A DNA stretch of 53,603 nucleotides from Streptomyces hygroscopicus subsp. hygroscopicus (GTDB taxonomy: Bacteria; Actinomycetota; Actinomycetes; Streptomycetales; Streptomycetaceae): contig NZ_BBOX01000033.1 of assembly GCF_001553455.1 (NCBI RefSeq), positions 1-53,603 of the forward strand. Reading direction: 5' to 3'. A model generated the notes under the pieces. That model ran no database searches and was not told the origin of the DNA. It saw only the letters and a program-made list of their open reading frames with translations. Position 1 is the stretch's first letter; the number at the start of each line of letters is the position of its first letter. The translations under genes were made by a program, and so were the position numbers. Positions 10,061-15,595 of the stretch are shown piece after piece.

Positions 10061-11095
10061 TCAGTCCTTGTAGGTGTCGTTGACCTTGATCTGGCCGTCG
10101 ATGATCTTCTTCTTGGCCGCCTCGATCTTCGGCTTGATGTCGTCGATGAACCCGCCGGAGTACGAGAGGGAGACACCGCCGCGCTTGAGGTCGTAGGACT
10201 GGACGCCGCTCTCGGCCTTCTTGTCCTTGACGACGCTCTTGATGAAGTCGTAGACCGAGCCGTCCACGTTCTTGACCATGGAGGTCAGGATCGAGTTCTT
10301 GTACTGGGACAGGCCCTTGTCGTAGTACTGGTCGCCGTCCACGCCGATCGACCAGGTGCCCTTCTTCCCGGCGGTCGCCTCGATGGCGCCCGCGCCGGAG
10401 CCGCCGGCCGCGGAGAAGATCACATCGACCTTGTTGGACAGCATGCCCTCGGCGATGTCCTTGCCGCGGTCGGGCATGCCGAAGCCCTTGGCCGAACCGA
10501 CCTGCACCCACTGGACGTCGAGGGACGCCTTGGGATTGGTGTCCTTCAGACCCTGCTGGAAGCCGCCCGCGAACTTCTTGATCAGCGCGCTGTCGGTGCC
10601 GCCGATGAAGCCGACCTTGTCCGACTTGGTCTTCAGCCCCGCGGCCACCCCGGCGAGGTAGGAGCCCTCGTGCTCGGCGGAGACCAGGCTGGCCACGTTC
10701 TTGGCGTCGACGACCGAGTCGATGATGGCGAAGTCGGTGTCCTTGTACTTCTTGGCGGCCTTGGTGAGCGAGGGGGTCCACGCGTAGCCGACGCCGATGA
10801 CGGGGTTGTAGCCCGCCTCGGCCAGGCTGGCCAGCTTGTCGTAGCGGTCGGCGTCGGTGTCGCCGTCCTTCGCCGTCAGCTCCTTGCCCTTGACGTCGAA
10901 GTCCTTCAGGGCCTTGTCGTAGCCCTTGGCGGCGGAGTCGTTGAAGGAGTGGTCGCCACGGCCGCCGACGTCATAGGCCAGACCGACGCCGGCGTCCTTG
11001 CTTCCCTCTTCGGAACTGCTGCCACACGCGGTGACGGAGAATGCGAGAGCCGCGGTGGCAATGCCCGCGACAGCTATCGTGGATACCCGGCGCAC
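10061..11095 (-). CDS. BMP-family nucleoside-binding lipoprotein
   Basis: Substrate-binding protein of the importer: 344 residues, signal MRRVSTIAVAGIATAALAFSVTAC with lipobox ending at Cys24, then a Ser/Glu-rich linker. The BMP fold is seen in VGLAYDVGGRGDHSFNDSAAKGY and IGVGYAWTPSLTKAAKKYKDTDFAIIDSVV. The start is GTG 11095 with GAGGGGA upstream. It is the first gene of the operon, 112 bp before the ATPase. Family knowledge (BMP proteins with cdd/deoA neighbours bind purine or pyrimidine nucleosides) supports nucleoside specificity. Confidence 0.93.
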   Translation of the reverse strand: MRRVSTIAVAGIATAALAFSVTACGSSSEEGSKDAGVGLAYDVGGRGDHSFNDSAAKGYDKALKDFDVKGKELTAKDGDTDADRYDKLASLAEAGYNPVIGVGYAWTPSLTKAAKKYKDTDFAIIDSVVDAKNVASLVSAEHEGSYLAGVAAGLKTKSDKVGFIGGTDSALIKKFAGGFQQGLKDTNPKASLDVQWVQVGSAKGFGMPDRGKDIAEGMLSNKVDVIFSAAGGSGAGAIEATAGKKGTWSIGVDGDQYYDKGLSQYKNSILTSMVKNVDGSVYDFIKSVVKDKKAESGVQSYDLKRGGVSLSYSGGFIDDIKPKIEAAKKKIIDGQIKVNDTYKD

Positions 11096-11214
11096 GAGGG
11101 TCCCCTCTGAATGTTCTCGGAGCGCCCTTTGCGGCGCTGGCTCCGCCGCATCGTAACGCGCGTAGATGTCAGATAAAGGGCCCCTCGGAAGCCGTTATCG
11201 GATCGTCGCGAACC

Positions 11215-12801
11215 TCACGTGTCCGCCAGGTCTCCACAATGTTTCGGGTAGGCGAAACGGCCGCGATTGCGTCCGGTACGTCCCTGTATGGGCCCCGTGG
11301 GGTCAGGTTCCGGTGGCGGGTTCCGGTGACGGGTTCCGGTGACGGGTTCCGGTGACGGGTTCCGGTGACGGGTTCCGGTGACGGGTTCCGGTGACGGGTT
11401 CCGGTGACGGGTTCCGGTGACGGGTTCCGGTGACGGGTTCCGGTGACGGGTTCCGGTGACGGGTTCCGGTGACGGGTTCCGGTGACGGGTTCCGGTGACG
11501 GGTTCCGGTGACGGGTTCCGGTGACGGGTTCCGGTGGCGGGTTCCGGTGGCGGGTTCCGGTGGCGGGTTCCGGTGGCGGGTTCCGGTGGCGGGGAGGAGT
11601 GCCGGGCGGCCCGGCACTCCTCCCCTGCCACCGGACGTACGGCCCCGCCCGTGCGCCATGGCGGTGGCGCGCAGGCGGGGCCGGGACGACACCGGACCGG
11701 GGGCTTCGTCCGCCAGCCGAGGGGGGTGTCAGGCGAGCGGAGCCAGAGCCGCTGTCCGCCGGGGAACACGGTCAACCCGAAATCGCCGGGGTCCGGACTG
11801 CCGTCCTGCACATACGCGCCGTGCACGGCAGTGACCTCCTCCCACAACTGGCGTGGGCCGTAACTCCACACCTCGTCCTGGGTGACCGTGGCCGCCGACC
11901 CCTTTCGGTCGTGAAGCCAGAGCCGGTACCCGCCGTCCGGCGTTCCGTCGGCCATGACCACGCCCGGCAGTTTCGCGCCCGCGTAGAGGGCGAAGCCGAG
12001 CCCGGCCATGGTGCCGACGGCAAGCGCGCCGGGGCTGCCGCGCCGCCCGGTCCCGCTGTCCACCGGGGCGTCCGGACCAGGGCGCTCCGAGCGCATCGGC
12101 ATGAACCGGGCACCGCCGACGAACCGGCCGGAGGCCACCCCGTCGCCGCCCACGTCGAGCCGTACCAGCGCCCCGGACCAGAAGTCCCCCGCCAGCGGGG
12201 CGACAATGCGCCCGCCCGGCCTGGTCTGCCGTACCCATGCGTAGGGGATGCGGCGCACCGAACAGGTCGCGATGACCCGGTCGTACGGCGCCCCGGACGC
12301 CCATCCCCGAGCGCCGTCGCCCCATACGACGTCGGGGCTGTATCCGGCCTCCTTGATGACCTTCGCGGCCCTTTCCGCCAGGACCGGATCGATCTCAACG
12401 GTGGTGACGTTGCCGCTCCCCAGGCGCGCGGCGAGCAGCGCCGCGTTCCAGCCGCTGCCGGTGCCGATCTCCAGCACGCGCTGCCCGTCGGCGACGTCGA
12501 GCGCGGTGAGCATGCGCGCCACCATCGTGGGCATGGAGTTGGACGAGGTCGCGATTCCCGGGCCGTCGCTCCGCCCGTCGTCCACCTGCGTCACGATCGG
12601 CACGTCCCGGTGGACAAGGTCCCACCAGGCCGCGTCCGTCGTGACGGGAACGCAGGTGGCCCGCTGCTCCCAGATGTCGCCGGGGATGAAGTGGTGGCGT
12701 GGGACGGCGTCGAAGGCCGGGCGCCATGCGTCGGGGAGTTCGCCGGACGCGGCGAGGGCATCCAGCAGCGCGGCGTAACGTGGCCGCCAGTCCTCGGTCA
12801 T
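11215..12801 (-). CDS. PIMT-like O-methyltransferase with minisatellite-encoded C-terminal tail
   Basis: SAM-dependent methyltransferase of the protein-L-isoaspartate methyltransferase (PIMT) superfamily. PRHHFIP at 34-40, SSNSMP at 86-91 and the SAM loop VLEIGTGSGWNAALLA at 109-124 are present. The second domain (about 200-365) follows the pattern of PIMT relatives that act on ribosomal peptides. Recognisable sequence ends near GWRTKPP (about residue 365). After that the frame runs on with no stop through the 13-bp repeat array, adding Pro/Thr/Arg-rich TGTRHRNPSPEPV units at about residues 403-498 and a unique 30-residue end. It begins six bases after the stop of the 34-residue proline-rich peptide gene. 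A RiPP-modifying role is inferred from that pairing; generic protein repair is the alternative. Confidence 0.85.
   Translation of the reverse strand: MTEDWRPRYAALLDALAASGELPDAWRPAFDAVPRHHFIPGDIWEQRATCVPVTTDAAWWDLVHRDVPIVTQVDDGRSDGPGIATSSNSMPTMVARMLTALDVADGQRVLEIGTGSGWNAALLAARLGSGNVTTVEIDPVLAERAAKVIKEAGYSPDVVWGDGARGWASGAPYDRVIATCSVRRIPYAWVRQTRPGGRIVAPLAGDFWSGALVRLDVGGDGVASGRFVGGARFMPMRSERPGPDAPVDSGTGRRGSPGALAVGTMAGLGFALYAGAKLPGVVMADGTPDGGYRLWLHDRKGSAATVTQDEVWSYGPRQLWEEVTAVHGAYVQDGSPDPGDFGLTVFPGGQRLWLRSPDTPLGWRTKPPVRCRPGPACAPPPWRTGGAVRPVAGEECRAARHSSPPPEPATGTRHRNPPPEPATGTRHRNPSPEPVTGTRHRNPSPEPVTGTRHRNPSPEPVTGTRHRNPSPEPVTGTRHRNPSPEPVTGTRHRNPPPEPDPTGPIQGRTGRNRGRFAYPKHCGDLADT
11308..11593. repeat. 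13-bp minisatellite, 22 copies
   Basis: Twenty-two head-to-tail copies of TTCCGGTGACGGG (top strand). Unit 1 and units 18-22 read GGTGGC instead of GGTGAC; units 2-17 are identical. Thirteen is not a multiple of three, so the array passes through every frame, and none of the three minus-strand frames meets a stop. The array is coding for the methyltransferase tail. Confidence 0.97.
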
Positions 12802-12807
12802 GGGGCC

Positions 12808-12912
12808 TCACTTCTGCCTCGGGGGCGGTGTGCCGTCCGGCGGGGGCGGCGGCGGGGGCGTCCACGGCTTGATCGGGGCGGGATCGCCCTTGTGCTTGCT
12901 CTCGACAGTCAT
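12808..12912 (-). CDS. 34-residue proline-rich peptide, candidate RiPP precursor
   Basis: Too short for usual gene calling but well formed: ATG at 12912, AGGTGG upstream, stop TGA, then six bases to the methyltransferase ATG. The sequence is Lys-rich at the start (MTVESKHKGDPAPIKPW) followed by TPPPPPPPDGTPPPRQK. It has no signal peptide, no cysteine, and one Asp-Gly (PPDGT). Asp-Gly is the site most prone to aspartimide/isoaspartate chemistry, which is the target of PIMT-type enzymes. Stand-alone peptide plus PIMT pairs define the aspartimide RiPPs called imiditides. Assignment to that class is inference; it could also be a structural or regulatory micro-protein. Confidence 0.6.
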   Translation of the reverse strand: MTVESKHKGDPAPIKPWTPPPPPPPDGTPPPRQK

Positions 12913-13064
12913 CGTTCCACCTCTTGGGTACGGGCGCCGGAGCGCCGGTGTACAGGCCCGCCCCGGCCGGTCCGTCCTCACCGACAACGGGCGGCGGCCG
13001 GGGCGGGGGCTTCTCGTCGCGGGACTCCGGCCCGCGAGCCCCGTACCGGGGCCGGATCCCCTGT

Positions 13065-13102
13065 CCTGCGGTCGGCGGCCGTGCCTGGCCGCCGACCGCA
13101 GG
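13065..13102. terminator. strong hairpin between operons
   Basis: Perfect 16-bp inverted repeat (13065-13080 with 13087-13102) around a six-base loop GTGCCT, without a T-tract, typical of high-GC terminators. It lies 285 bp after the 68-residue gene and 153 bp before the proline-rich peptide, so it probably separates these leftward units. The rest of 12913-13387 shows no gene. Confidence 0.7.
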
Positions 13103-13387
13103 AGAGGGTGCGGGGAGGGTCAGGGTGCGGGGAGGGTCAAGGCGCGGCGGGCCAGGGTGCAGGGAGTTGTGCCGCTGGGGCCGTCGTCCGGTACGGGGCC
13201 CGGGACTCCGACGACCCACCCCGGCCCATGGGTCCGGGGTTGCCTGCGACGCGGAGGCGGTCCACGAGGACCGGGAGCCCGGGGACCGGGACCGCGAGGA
13301 CCGCGGTGAGCGGCAGGCCCGTGCGGGCGGCCGGGCAGGGAGCGGCCCGACGCGGGCGGCGGGCGGCGGGCGACTGCCGAGGGTGCC

Positions 13388-13594
13388 TCATTCCGTGTCA
13401 TCCCCCGGCCTGGCCTGGCGCGTGGCCTCCTCATAGGCGCGGAGCAGCCGCTCCCCCGTCTCGCACCCGGCGCCGGGCGTCCGGCAGCCCAGGCAGCCTG
13501 CGGCATGCTCGATGGCCGCACGCCACGCCTCGTCGGCGAACGGGTCCACGGCCTGCTCGGCAGTCTGCTCAGCGATCTGCTCGGGGGCCGTCAT
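13388..13594 (-). CDS. small Cys-containing protein, unknown
   Basis: A 68-residue acidic protein starting [14 protein letters not shown], with three cysteines in [11 protein letters not shown] that could bind a metal. Its start overlaps the stop of the preceding 198-residue gene by four bases, so the two are cotranslated. I do not recognise a function. Pairs like this commonly sit opposite XRE/TPR regulators in Streptomyces accessory regions, and here the regulator at 14339 is transcribed away from it. Confidence 0.65.
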
Positions 13595-14187
13595 CGGATC
13601 CTGCCCCGGCCGAGCGCGCGGCGCATGGCGCCGGCCTCGGCGACGGCGTCGCGCGGGTAGGTCCGGGCATGCGAGGGGCAGGCGTAGATGGTCGCGCCGG
13701 CGACGCTGCCGCTGTGTTCGATGGCGACGACGACCGGTTCGTCGGTGGGCAGTTGGCAGCGATAGCAGAGCTGACGGCCGTCCGGCGGCGGCCCGAGGAC
13801 CTCGGCGACAGCCTGACGCAAGGCGCGAGCCAGGTGATGGGTATCGGTCAGATACCGGCCCCGTCCCAGGGGAATCCGCCAGCGCGTCCGGTGCTCAGCT
13901 CCCCAGGAGGCGGGCGGTACGCCGAGGAGGGTGCCTTCGTCGGTGAGCGCGGTGAGGACGCGGACCTGGCGCAGGCACCAGCTGCGGGCGGTGTCGATGC
14001 CGATCAGCCAGTAGCACTTGCCGTATGTGTCGTCCTGGATGACAGCGCCGGACCGGTCGCCGAGCAGTTCCAGGGCGCGGTCCGCGACGGGGACGGGCGC
14101 GGACACGGCGTCCCACCATTCGCCCACCGGTAACGCCTCGATGTCCTCGGTGTTCGGCGGTGTCCACAGCGGGGCTTCGGAACTCAT
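13591..14187 (-). CDS. conserved hypothetical protein with possible zinc ribbon
   Basis: A 198-residue soluble protein starting [20 protein letters not shown]. Near the C-terminus CYRC (about residues 149-152) and a later ACPSHAR give a CxxC...CxxH set that may bind zinc. The N-terminal part has [18 protein letters not shown] and no enzymatic signature that I recognise. It is divergent from the XRE regulator at 14339 with about 150 bp between starts, so a shared control region is plausible. Function unknown. Confidence 0.7.
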
Positions 14188-14338
14188 ACATCCCCTTCCC
14201 GATTACGGTTGGTGAGGAGACGAAACCGTGCGTCATGCTGTATCGACCAGTGCTGACCCGCCAGGCGCATACGCGTATGCAGCCAGCGCATACCCGTGGC
14301 CAGTAGCCGGAGAGACCCAGGTATCAAGGGGAGTAGGA

Positions 14339-15595
14339 ATGAACTGGTCTTCACAAGCGATTCGGGACGCCGCCCGCCAAGGTGACTACGGGCGGGTCGT
14401 CAGCCTGGTCCGCCGCGACGCCGGTGTCTCCCAGAGCCAACTCGGCGACGCCTGTGGGATCAGCCAGTCCGCTGTCTCTCGTCTCGAGGGACGCGGCGCA
14501 GCCTCATACGACATGGCCATTCTGGCGAGAGCCGCCACGCACTTGCACATTCCCCCGCGTCTGGTTGGCCTCGCCGACCACACAGCGGCGCATGGCGCCG
14601 AGAATGGACAGCACGACGTGCACCGGCGCAACTTCCTGGCAGGCACCGCGGCGGCGATCGCCACGCCGACCCTGGCAGCTCGTCATCCCAAACCTGCGGA
14701 CCCTGGCCAGGCCGCGACGCTCCGCGTGGCCACCACAGCCTTCCGCCGACTGGACGGAACCACCCCCTCCCGGCAGCTCTCCGAGCCGGTCCTGGCCCAC
14801 CTGCGGCTCATCCAGACCGTCACCGGCGATGCCGAAGCGCCCGAGCAGCGAGCCCGCTTGGCCGCAGCGGGCAGTGAAGCAGCATCCCTAGCCGGTTGGC
14901 TGGCCTGGGACATGAACGACATCGGATCTGCCCGTACCTGGTACGGCGCGGCCATCAAGGCCGCGCGTACCTCCGGTGACCGACTGCTCACCGCCTACCA
15001 ACTCGGCAGCCTGGCCGGCTTCGAGACAGACGCCGGGAACACCGCCCAGGGGCTTGCCCTCGTCCGCAAAGCTCATCGTCAGCTCGGTGACGCAGGACCG
15101 GCCATCGCCACCGCATGGCTTGGCACGATCGAGGCGCTCGCGCACGCGGCCGCAGGGGATCGTCCCGCTGCGGAAGCCGCGCTCGACCAGGCCACCCGCA
15201 GCGCTGATGCCCTCCAGGAGGAGCAGCCGCCACCGTGGCCATGGGTCTTCACCTTCACCCATGCCAAGGTCGCGGCAACCCGGCTCACCTGCGGCGCACG
15301 GCTCGGCCTCGTTCCATGGGTGACCGCCTCGCAGGACGCAGCGGCGGCGGCCCTCACGTCGAGCCACGAAAAGCAGCGTGCGCTGCTCATGCTGGACTTG
15401 GCCACCGCGCAACTGGCGACCGGTCGGCTGGATGGGGCGTTCGCCCTCGCTGGGCGGGCACTTGAGACGGGCGCACGATATCGGTCAGGTCGGATCATCG
15501 AACGTGCCCGAGGACTCCGGCGGTCCTACACTTCGACGACTCCCCCCAGAGCTGTCCGCGAGTTCGACGACCGCCTCCATGGCATCTATCTGTGA
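14339..15595 (+). CDS. XRE-family regulator with TPR-like C-terminal domain
   Basis: A 418-residue protein. An N-terminal helix-turn-helix lies at about residues 16-70 (VVSLVRRDAGVSQSQLGDACGISQSAVSRLEGR). After a linker (MDVHRRNFLAGTAAAIATP-like) comes an alanine-rich helical repeat region of about 270 residues resembling TPR regulators common in Streptomyces. The start at 14339 is supported by AGGGGAGTAGG; the frame extends to 14228 without a better start. It is followed at 19 bp by the first SLOG gene, so it heads the SLOG-RibD-SLOG cassette and may sense its ligand. Target DNA is unknown. Confidence 0.85.
   Translation: MNWSSQAIRDAARQGDYGRVVSLVRRDAGVSQSQLGDACGISQSAVSRLEGRGAASYDMAILARAATHLHIPPRLVGLADHTAAHGAENGQHDVHRRNFLAGTAAAIATPTLAARHPKPADPGQAATLRVATTAFRRLDGTTPSRQLSEPVLAHLRLIQTVTGDAEAPEQRARLAAAGSEAASLAGWLAWDMNDIGSARTWYGAAIKAARTSGDRLLTAYQLGSLAGFETDAGNTAQGLALVRKAHRQLGDAGPAIATAWLGTIEALAHAAAGDRPAAEAALDQATRSADALQEEQPPPWPWVFTFTHAKVAATRLTCGARLGLVPWVTASQDAAAAALTSSHEKQRALLMLDLATAQLATGRLDGAFALAGRALETGARYRSGRIIERARGLRRSYTSTTPPRAVREFDDRLHGIYL

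Follow-up and report, generated by a model that had tools for sequence, protein, structure and literature searches.

A proline-rich peptide gene conserved beside a PIMT-like methyltransferase in Streptomyces hygroscopicus: a probable imiditide operon

The peptide-methyltransferase pair

Positions 1 to 53,603 of contig NZ_BBOX01000033.1 of Streptomyces hygroscopicus subsp. hygroscopicus (assembly GCF_001553455.1; hereafter the window) contain, on the minus strand, a small open reading frame (ORF) that encodes a 34-residue, proline-rich peptide, followed by a gene for a methyltransferase related to protein isoaspartyl methyltransferase (PIMT). The original prediction, made from the DNA letters alone, took the two for a minimal system producing an aspartimide-bearing ribosomally synthesized and post-translationally modified peptide (RiPP) of the imiditide class. 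Imiditides, or type I pamtides, are a published class (PMC13001092 and PMC10787088), and its criterion, a precursor gene adjoining a PIMT homologue, describes the layout found here. The small gene had been placed at 12808-12912, six bases ahead of the methyltransferase; these coordinates held, as did the six-base gap between the precursor stop and the methyltransferase ATG. The features of the pair are as follows.

12808..12912, minus: precursor peptide gene, 34 aa (MTVESKHKGDPAPIKPWTPPPPPPPDGTPPPRQK), supported by the ORF call and by conservation in relatives
12917..12923, minus: Shine-Dalgarno (SD)-like GAGGTGG ahead of the precursor ATG; GGAGG occurs at the equivalent site in 15 relatives' copies
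12862..12870, minus: Lys15-Pro16-Trp17, precursor signature of the clade; [K/R]PW in 38 of 42 peptides with an SD-backed start
12838..12858, minus: run of seven Pro (residues 19-25) in the stretch from Trp17 to the Asp-Gly, read from the sequence; putative rigid spacer
12832..12837, minus: Asp26-Gly27, putative site of methylation and aspartimide closure; Asp-Gly in 38 of 38 KPW peptides
11716..12801, minus: PAMT/PIMT-like methyltransferase, 362 codons matching full-length relatives (TIGR04188, PF01135, plus a C-terminal domain)
12451..12477, minus: VLEIGTGSG of the methyltransferase, read from the sequence, which we take to be S-adenosylmethionine (SAM)-binding motif I
11794..11814, minus: YVQDGSP, the counterpart of WXXXGXP (motif from PMC13001092), with Tyr (Tyr330) in place of Trp

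The precursor consists of 13 Pro (38.2%) and 4 Lys (11.8%), with Gly and Asp at 5.9% each; its earlier description as almost entirely Lys/Pro was overstated, these two residues accounting for 17 of 34. It has three Thr, one Ser, one Glu, two Asp and no Cys, a net charge of +2 and a basic C-terminus (RQK). Its Asp-Gly is single, as had been predicted, the other Asp (D10) preceding a Pro. A sigma-70 scan from 10900 to 14400 returned no promoter-like site and one terminator-like site, at chance level.

Coding constraint on the precursor

Substitutions in the precursor gene were counted in its closest group of relatives. The search pattern used for this purpose left few of the first and second bases in codons 9-18 free, and none of the 16 loci found failed it (0/16); L003 and L036 were excluded for a disturbed frame, leaving 14 copies, of which 12 were distinct. 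Among these 12 genes, codons 9-27 showed nine variable columns, all nine at third positions. The pN/pS ratio was 0.35 in frame, the two alternative frames giving 2.34 and 0.76. A narrower pattern, which missed 5 of the 16 loci, yielded 8 distinct genes in which 5 of 5 variable columns of the same codons lay at third positions. Because variation was confined to third positions and in-frame pN/pS was low, these sequence comparisons point to a real gene that is under selection at the amino-acid level. A chance ORF was rejected on the third-position variation among the copies together with the near-absence of the pairing at control positions, which is described below.

Pairing of peptide and enzyme across genomes

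Scanning named genomes yielded 12 loci (L001-L012) that encode a relative of the enzyme, and the upstream DNA was read in L001-L011. DPAPIKPWTPPPPPPPDG lay directly before the enzyme in all seven Streptomyces loci read, and four Kitasatospora loci (~42% enzyme identity) had a different short upstream peptide with PKPSPDGQGP. The L003 peptide was out of frame past its Asp-Gly, and that of L011 was disturbed at its 5′ end. Among 392 genomes of the same genus, at least 47 enzyme matches at E ≤ 1e-80 were found in 38 genomes, the window's own included; five candidates were scored per genome, so that 47 may be a lower bound.

An enzyme start was counted as paired if an SD-backed ORF of 25-75 codons containing [PN]DG ended within 60 bases of the estimated start, the peptide starts being picked by an SD rule devised for this analysis. 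This was the case at 42 of 47 methyltransferase starts. Of 2,975 positions drawn at random from the windows none qualified, and of 276 starts of ORFs other than methyltransferases in L001-L012 three did; one of the three control matches is a strict KPW..PDG and may be an other-frame ORF beside a methyltransferase. Failure to find the small ORF conserved ahead of close methyltransferase homologues had been named beforehand as grounds for abandoning the prediction. What was found there was the ORF, with its Asp-Gly conserved.

All 38 of the [K/R]PW peptides have xP after the Trp and a PDG ([K/R]PWxP...PDG). The spacing from Trp to Asp is 8 residues in 8 of them, 9 in 16 and 10 in 14. A separate conserved precursor, ..GNPQDDSDSGNKHGGGGSDEGGNTNDG.., accompanies the distant enzymes L078-L081; it has Asn-Asp-Gly, and its conserved part is without Trp.

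Proline runs stall ribosomes, and elongation factor P (EF-P) eases the stalling. The small ORF could accordingly be a regulatory leader whose prolines control translation of the methyltransferase, the peptide itself being functionless. The seven consecutive prolines would suit such a role, as would the position of the ORF end, which in the 42 SD-backed cases falls no more than 27 bases upstream and 3 bases downstream of the estimated enzyme start. However, the seven-Pro run is present in just 8 of 38 KPW peptides, others having forms such as KPWTPPPTPPSPDGSGP or KPWTPPSEPKPSPDGSRP, whereas KPW and PDG are present in all 38. Moreover, PPP is absent from some peptides (e.g., TPPSEPKPSPDG), the amino-acid constraint reaches beyond the prolines, and the enzymes of L078-L081 retain an Asp-Gly peptide that has no proline run. 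With the run unconserved, a leader-peptide attenuator was rejected, and we regard a leader function as very unlikely.

The methyltransferase and its relatives

The best named family for the enzyme was TIGR04188 (E 5e-95; 318.8 bits, under the curated cut-off of 380), the methyltransferase family of ATP-grasp peptide maturase systems, and Pfam PCMT (PF01135) also matched (E 4e-29), its domain ending at residue 238 of 362; both matches agree with the predicted PIMT-superfamily assignment. The structure model was confident to its end and included an extra C-terminal domain beyond canonical PIMT. Its best Foldseek match was Thermotoga maritima PIMT (PDB 1dl5), which shares the two-domain PIMT fold, with 19-20% identity over the alignments. 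To our knowledge, that protein is of the isoaspartate-repair type and is not known beside a peptide gene.

The PCMT domain, and the alignment of repair PIMTs of known structure across the catalytic domain, would also be in keeping with a housekeeping isoaspartate-repair enzyme to whose substrate the adjacent peptide is unrelated. Against this stand the conservation of the peptide beside the enzyme, the occurrence in the same genome of at least four similar enzymes beside short Pro- or Gly-rich peptides, and the extra C-terminal domain, which is that of RiPP-associated homologues (PMC10787088). A housekeeping role is, in our judgment, extremely improbable.

The match to TIGR04188 raised a further alternative, namely that an ATP-grasp enzyme encoded elsewhere cyclizes the peptide first and the methyltransferase acts second, as in graspimiditides, the pair being a graspetide remnant or tailoring unit. 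The original prediction had stated that no ATP-grasp, lanthionine synthetase or protease gene is present. For the first two this was upheld on the window's contig, with TIGR04187 ATP-grasp genes only on contigs C98 and C42 (two in the genome) and LanC-like genes (PF05147) only on C42 and C26; as to proteases, none was seen among the 13 neighboring ORFs scanned with Pfam, no dedicated search having been made. The same scan revealed no primary enzyme of another RiPP class (LanB, YcaO, radical SAM and lasso cyclase were not searched contig-wide), nor were genes for release, export or a role of the core peptide seen among the neighbors scanned. A lanthipeptide or lanthimiditide was rejected, PF05147 being absent from the contig and the peptide Cys-free, and a type II pamtide (cysimiditide) was rejected because a peptide without Cys cannot hold the CXXCXGXG tetracysteine motif.

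The two TIGR04187 genes of the genome lend the ATP-grasp alternative some support; so does an ATP-grasp gene 4 kb from the pair in genome G055, the only one within 100 kb of an enzyme on the same contig, in a test limited by short contigs. However, the C98 gene directly precedes a methyltransferase of its own, and that of G055 is accompanied by a separate precursor-like ORF and a separate methyltransferase. The C42 gene showed no methyltransferase in the stretch examined, and its position alone would allow a role in trans. Of the 37 further genomes that encode a close enzyme, 30 had a TIGR04187 match and 7 had none, a comparison limited by several assemblies being in many or short contigs. The peptide also has few Thr, Ser, Glu and Asp for the multi-ester rings of characterized graspimiditides.

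The enzymes themselves separate in a tree of 72 sequences. Fifteen from within ~4 kb of ATP-grasp genes lay on one side of a branch (support 99/98), and 45 formed one group (100/99) made up of 41 with KPW peptides plus L036, L051, L057 and L075. L003 and L010 were not entered and L074 was too short; identical enzymes were used once, rows were cut at 400 residues, and L001-L006 were labeled KPW from the upstream reading. Nine of 23 loci in the ATP-grasp set had no usable methyltransferase (eight none, one short). With the ATP-grasp genes either unlinked or provided with their own methyltransferase, graspetide tailoring was rejected, and we would assign it only a slight chance.

Relation to known systems and proposed maturation

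The closest systems are those with a stand-alone precursor. SpaA/SpaM, a type I pamtide of Streptomyces sparsogenes DSM 40356, resembles the present pair in its two genes, its linear precursor with a conserved Asp and the C-terminal domain of its methyltransferase (PMC10787088). A methyltransferase labeled Streptomyces sparsogenes by its source (P0017), which may or may not be SpaM, is 71% identical to this enzyme; used as a query against 100 relatives, it matched none but this window and G055. NmaA/NmaM, an imiditide of Nonomuraea maritima, likewise combines a stand-alone precursor with a PIMT homologue acting on a linear peptide; in NmaA, Asp-His takes the place of the Asp-Gly found here (PMC13001092). 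The graspimiditides (fuscimiditide, amycolimiditide, albusimiditide, SsfA) share a homologous methyltransferase and, in the cores that have been characterized, an Asp-Gly (PMC13001092) but require an ATP-grasp enzyme and ester cross-links. The present pair has no linked ATP-grasp gene, and in the tree its enzyme lies on a different branch from theirs. Cysimiditides (type II pamtides) also have a stand-alone precursor and methyltransferase but carry a tetracysteine zinc motif, unlike this Cys-free peptide.

Taken as a whole, we consider it highly probable that the pair is an imiditide (type I pamtide) operon in which the 34-residue peptide is the precursor and the methyltransferase acts on Asp26. 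The two-gene aspartimide reading of the original prediction is supported by the conserved pairing; that the product itself belongs to the imiditides we infer. By analogy with the published chemistry of SpaM (section 2.5 of PMC10787088) and NmaM, the methyltransferase would methylate Asp26, the backbone amide of Gly27 would attack the methyl ester with loss of methanol to close an aspartimide, and the aspartimide would hydrolyze to isoaspartate or Asp. The enzyme may dock on the conserved K-P-W part. The proline stretch, with 8-10 residues from Trp to Asp across the clade, may hold the Asp-Gly at the active site, a task performed by a macrocycle or zinc hairpin in other substrates of this enzyme family. 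Asp10, to judge from the sequence, would be spared, leaving one reactive site, because the Pro that follows it has no backbone NH, which is needed to close an aspartimide.

Several observations weigh against this assignment. Imiditide precursors are about 45 residues long and rich in Gly, Pro and Asp, with charged ends. The present one is shorter, at 34 residues, and its Gly and Asp contents of 5.9% each compare with published averages of 17.3% and 10.2%. The imiditide class has strong positive charges (PMC13001092), as against the net +2 of this precursor, and 28 of 38 KPW precursors have a net charge of zero or below. When precursor and enzyme were modeled by AlphaFold as one fused chain, the peptide was not placed, with a predicted local distance difference test score (pLDDT) under 50 for residues 1-25. 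Five of the 47 enzymes have no SD-backed peptide: in L057 and L074 the motif is present and a qualifying SD-backed start is absent, L051 has only a PPPPSPDGGGP tail left, L075 has no upstream peptide, and in L036 a frame-shifted stretch removes the Asp-Gly. The frame of L036 (G096:C6:6158456-6159538) is later restored, the prolines and Asp-Gly being replaced by APAAAPAGRHAA; this is either natural decay or a sequencing error, and a second, intact copy (L065) is present in the same genome, G096. In addition, a strain-specific extension of the enzyme, detailed in the next section, may impair it.

The enzyme also departs from the motif reported for imiditide enzymes, having YVQDGSP in place of WXXXGXP. 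The Trp is conserved in those enzymes, the motif being shared and not class-defining, and its replacement by Ala abolished the activity of TceM, which counts against the assignment, but not that of LihM (PMC13001092). At this position, Tyr or Phe is found in 38 of 40 KPW-clade rows bearing a letter and Trp in 25 of 26 such rows of other groups; four rows labeled 'other' have three Tyr and one Trp. Most likely, the KPW...PDG precursors are a conserved family within the known class whose enzymes have undergone a clade-wide change in this motif. A more specific idea is that the clade has a new way of presenting its Asp: Trp17 of K-P-W would anchor the peptide, and the 8-10-residue polyproline rod would serve as a ruler positioning the Asp-Gly in the active site, so that an ordinary linear peptide could do without a macrocycle or zinc hairpin. 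The Trp lost from the enzyme motif in this clade would, as it were, have been transferred to the substrate. Such an exchange is confounded by ancestry, as the change falls within a single clade. Counter-examples also exist: L021 combines a QPW peptide and a Trp enzyme, and L073 and L077 combine KPW with Trp. We consider this idea rather unlikely.

Strain-specific extension and genomic neighborhood

Because the usual stop is absent, the methyltransferase ORF runs in full from 12801 to 11215 on the minus strand (528 codons), adding two features.

11215..11715, minus: strain-specific C-terminal extension of the methyltransferase ORF, with a sense codon at the usual stop position
11306..11593, no strand assigned: array of 22 copies of a 13-bp tandem repeat (unit GGTTCCGGTGACG) within the extension, unique in the assembly

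The extension reads through the array and continues for 166 residues past the usual end. In 12 close relatives the enzyme ends at residue 361 or 362 with TGA (11 cases) or at residue 384 (L001); the L037 enzyme also has 384 residues. The ordinary 362-residue form is exemplified by L002 (Streptomyces rugosispiralis) and L004 (S. endocoffeicus). Although a 13-bp period shifts the reading frame from copy to copy, every minus-strand phase is open, giving a 13-residue unit (SPEPVTGTRHRNP). The array was not found in the rest of the genome assembly or in any of L001-L012.

Upstream of the pair are genes for a 68-residue protein (13388-13594, minus) and a 198-residue protein (13591-14187, minus). The Streptomyces loci L001-L004 and L010 also have the 68-residue gene ahead of the pair. 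It was not seen within 600 bases in L005 and L006, and a copy precedes the G055 ATP-grasp gene; it may belong to a regulatory cassette that such peptide clusters have in common. Divergent from the cassette is an NsdA-family regulator gene (NF053720, E 6e-66; 14228-15595, plus), a candidate for control of the pair.

Elsewhere in the genome, the other pairs of such an enzyme with a short Pro- or Gly-rich peptide, at least four as judged by eye, lie on C130 (peptide ..PGQPWTPPQEPPSPDGDTPPGDGTHRK), C1 (MGKHEKPPPDTSQGKPPPGNSDGQVPPPQPGNGKHKK), C22, where the start is uncertain, and C177, whose peptide has Asp-Val, not Asp-Gly. A single strain appears to encode a modest set of these peptides.

Implications

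The bigger challenge for the field is to tie aspartimide peptides to biological function (PMC13001092). The present pair is an example of a precursor gene type that is often missed by genome annotation (PMC13001092), and it would bring a precursor family that is well defined and easy to make into a class in which structures are still needed to explain substrate recognition (PMC13001092). With one Asp-Gly, predicted to be reactive, one Trp and a proline spacer that makes the distance from Trp to Asp vary naturally, these peptides would let the choice of one Asp in a linear chain by a PIMT homologue be tested directly.
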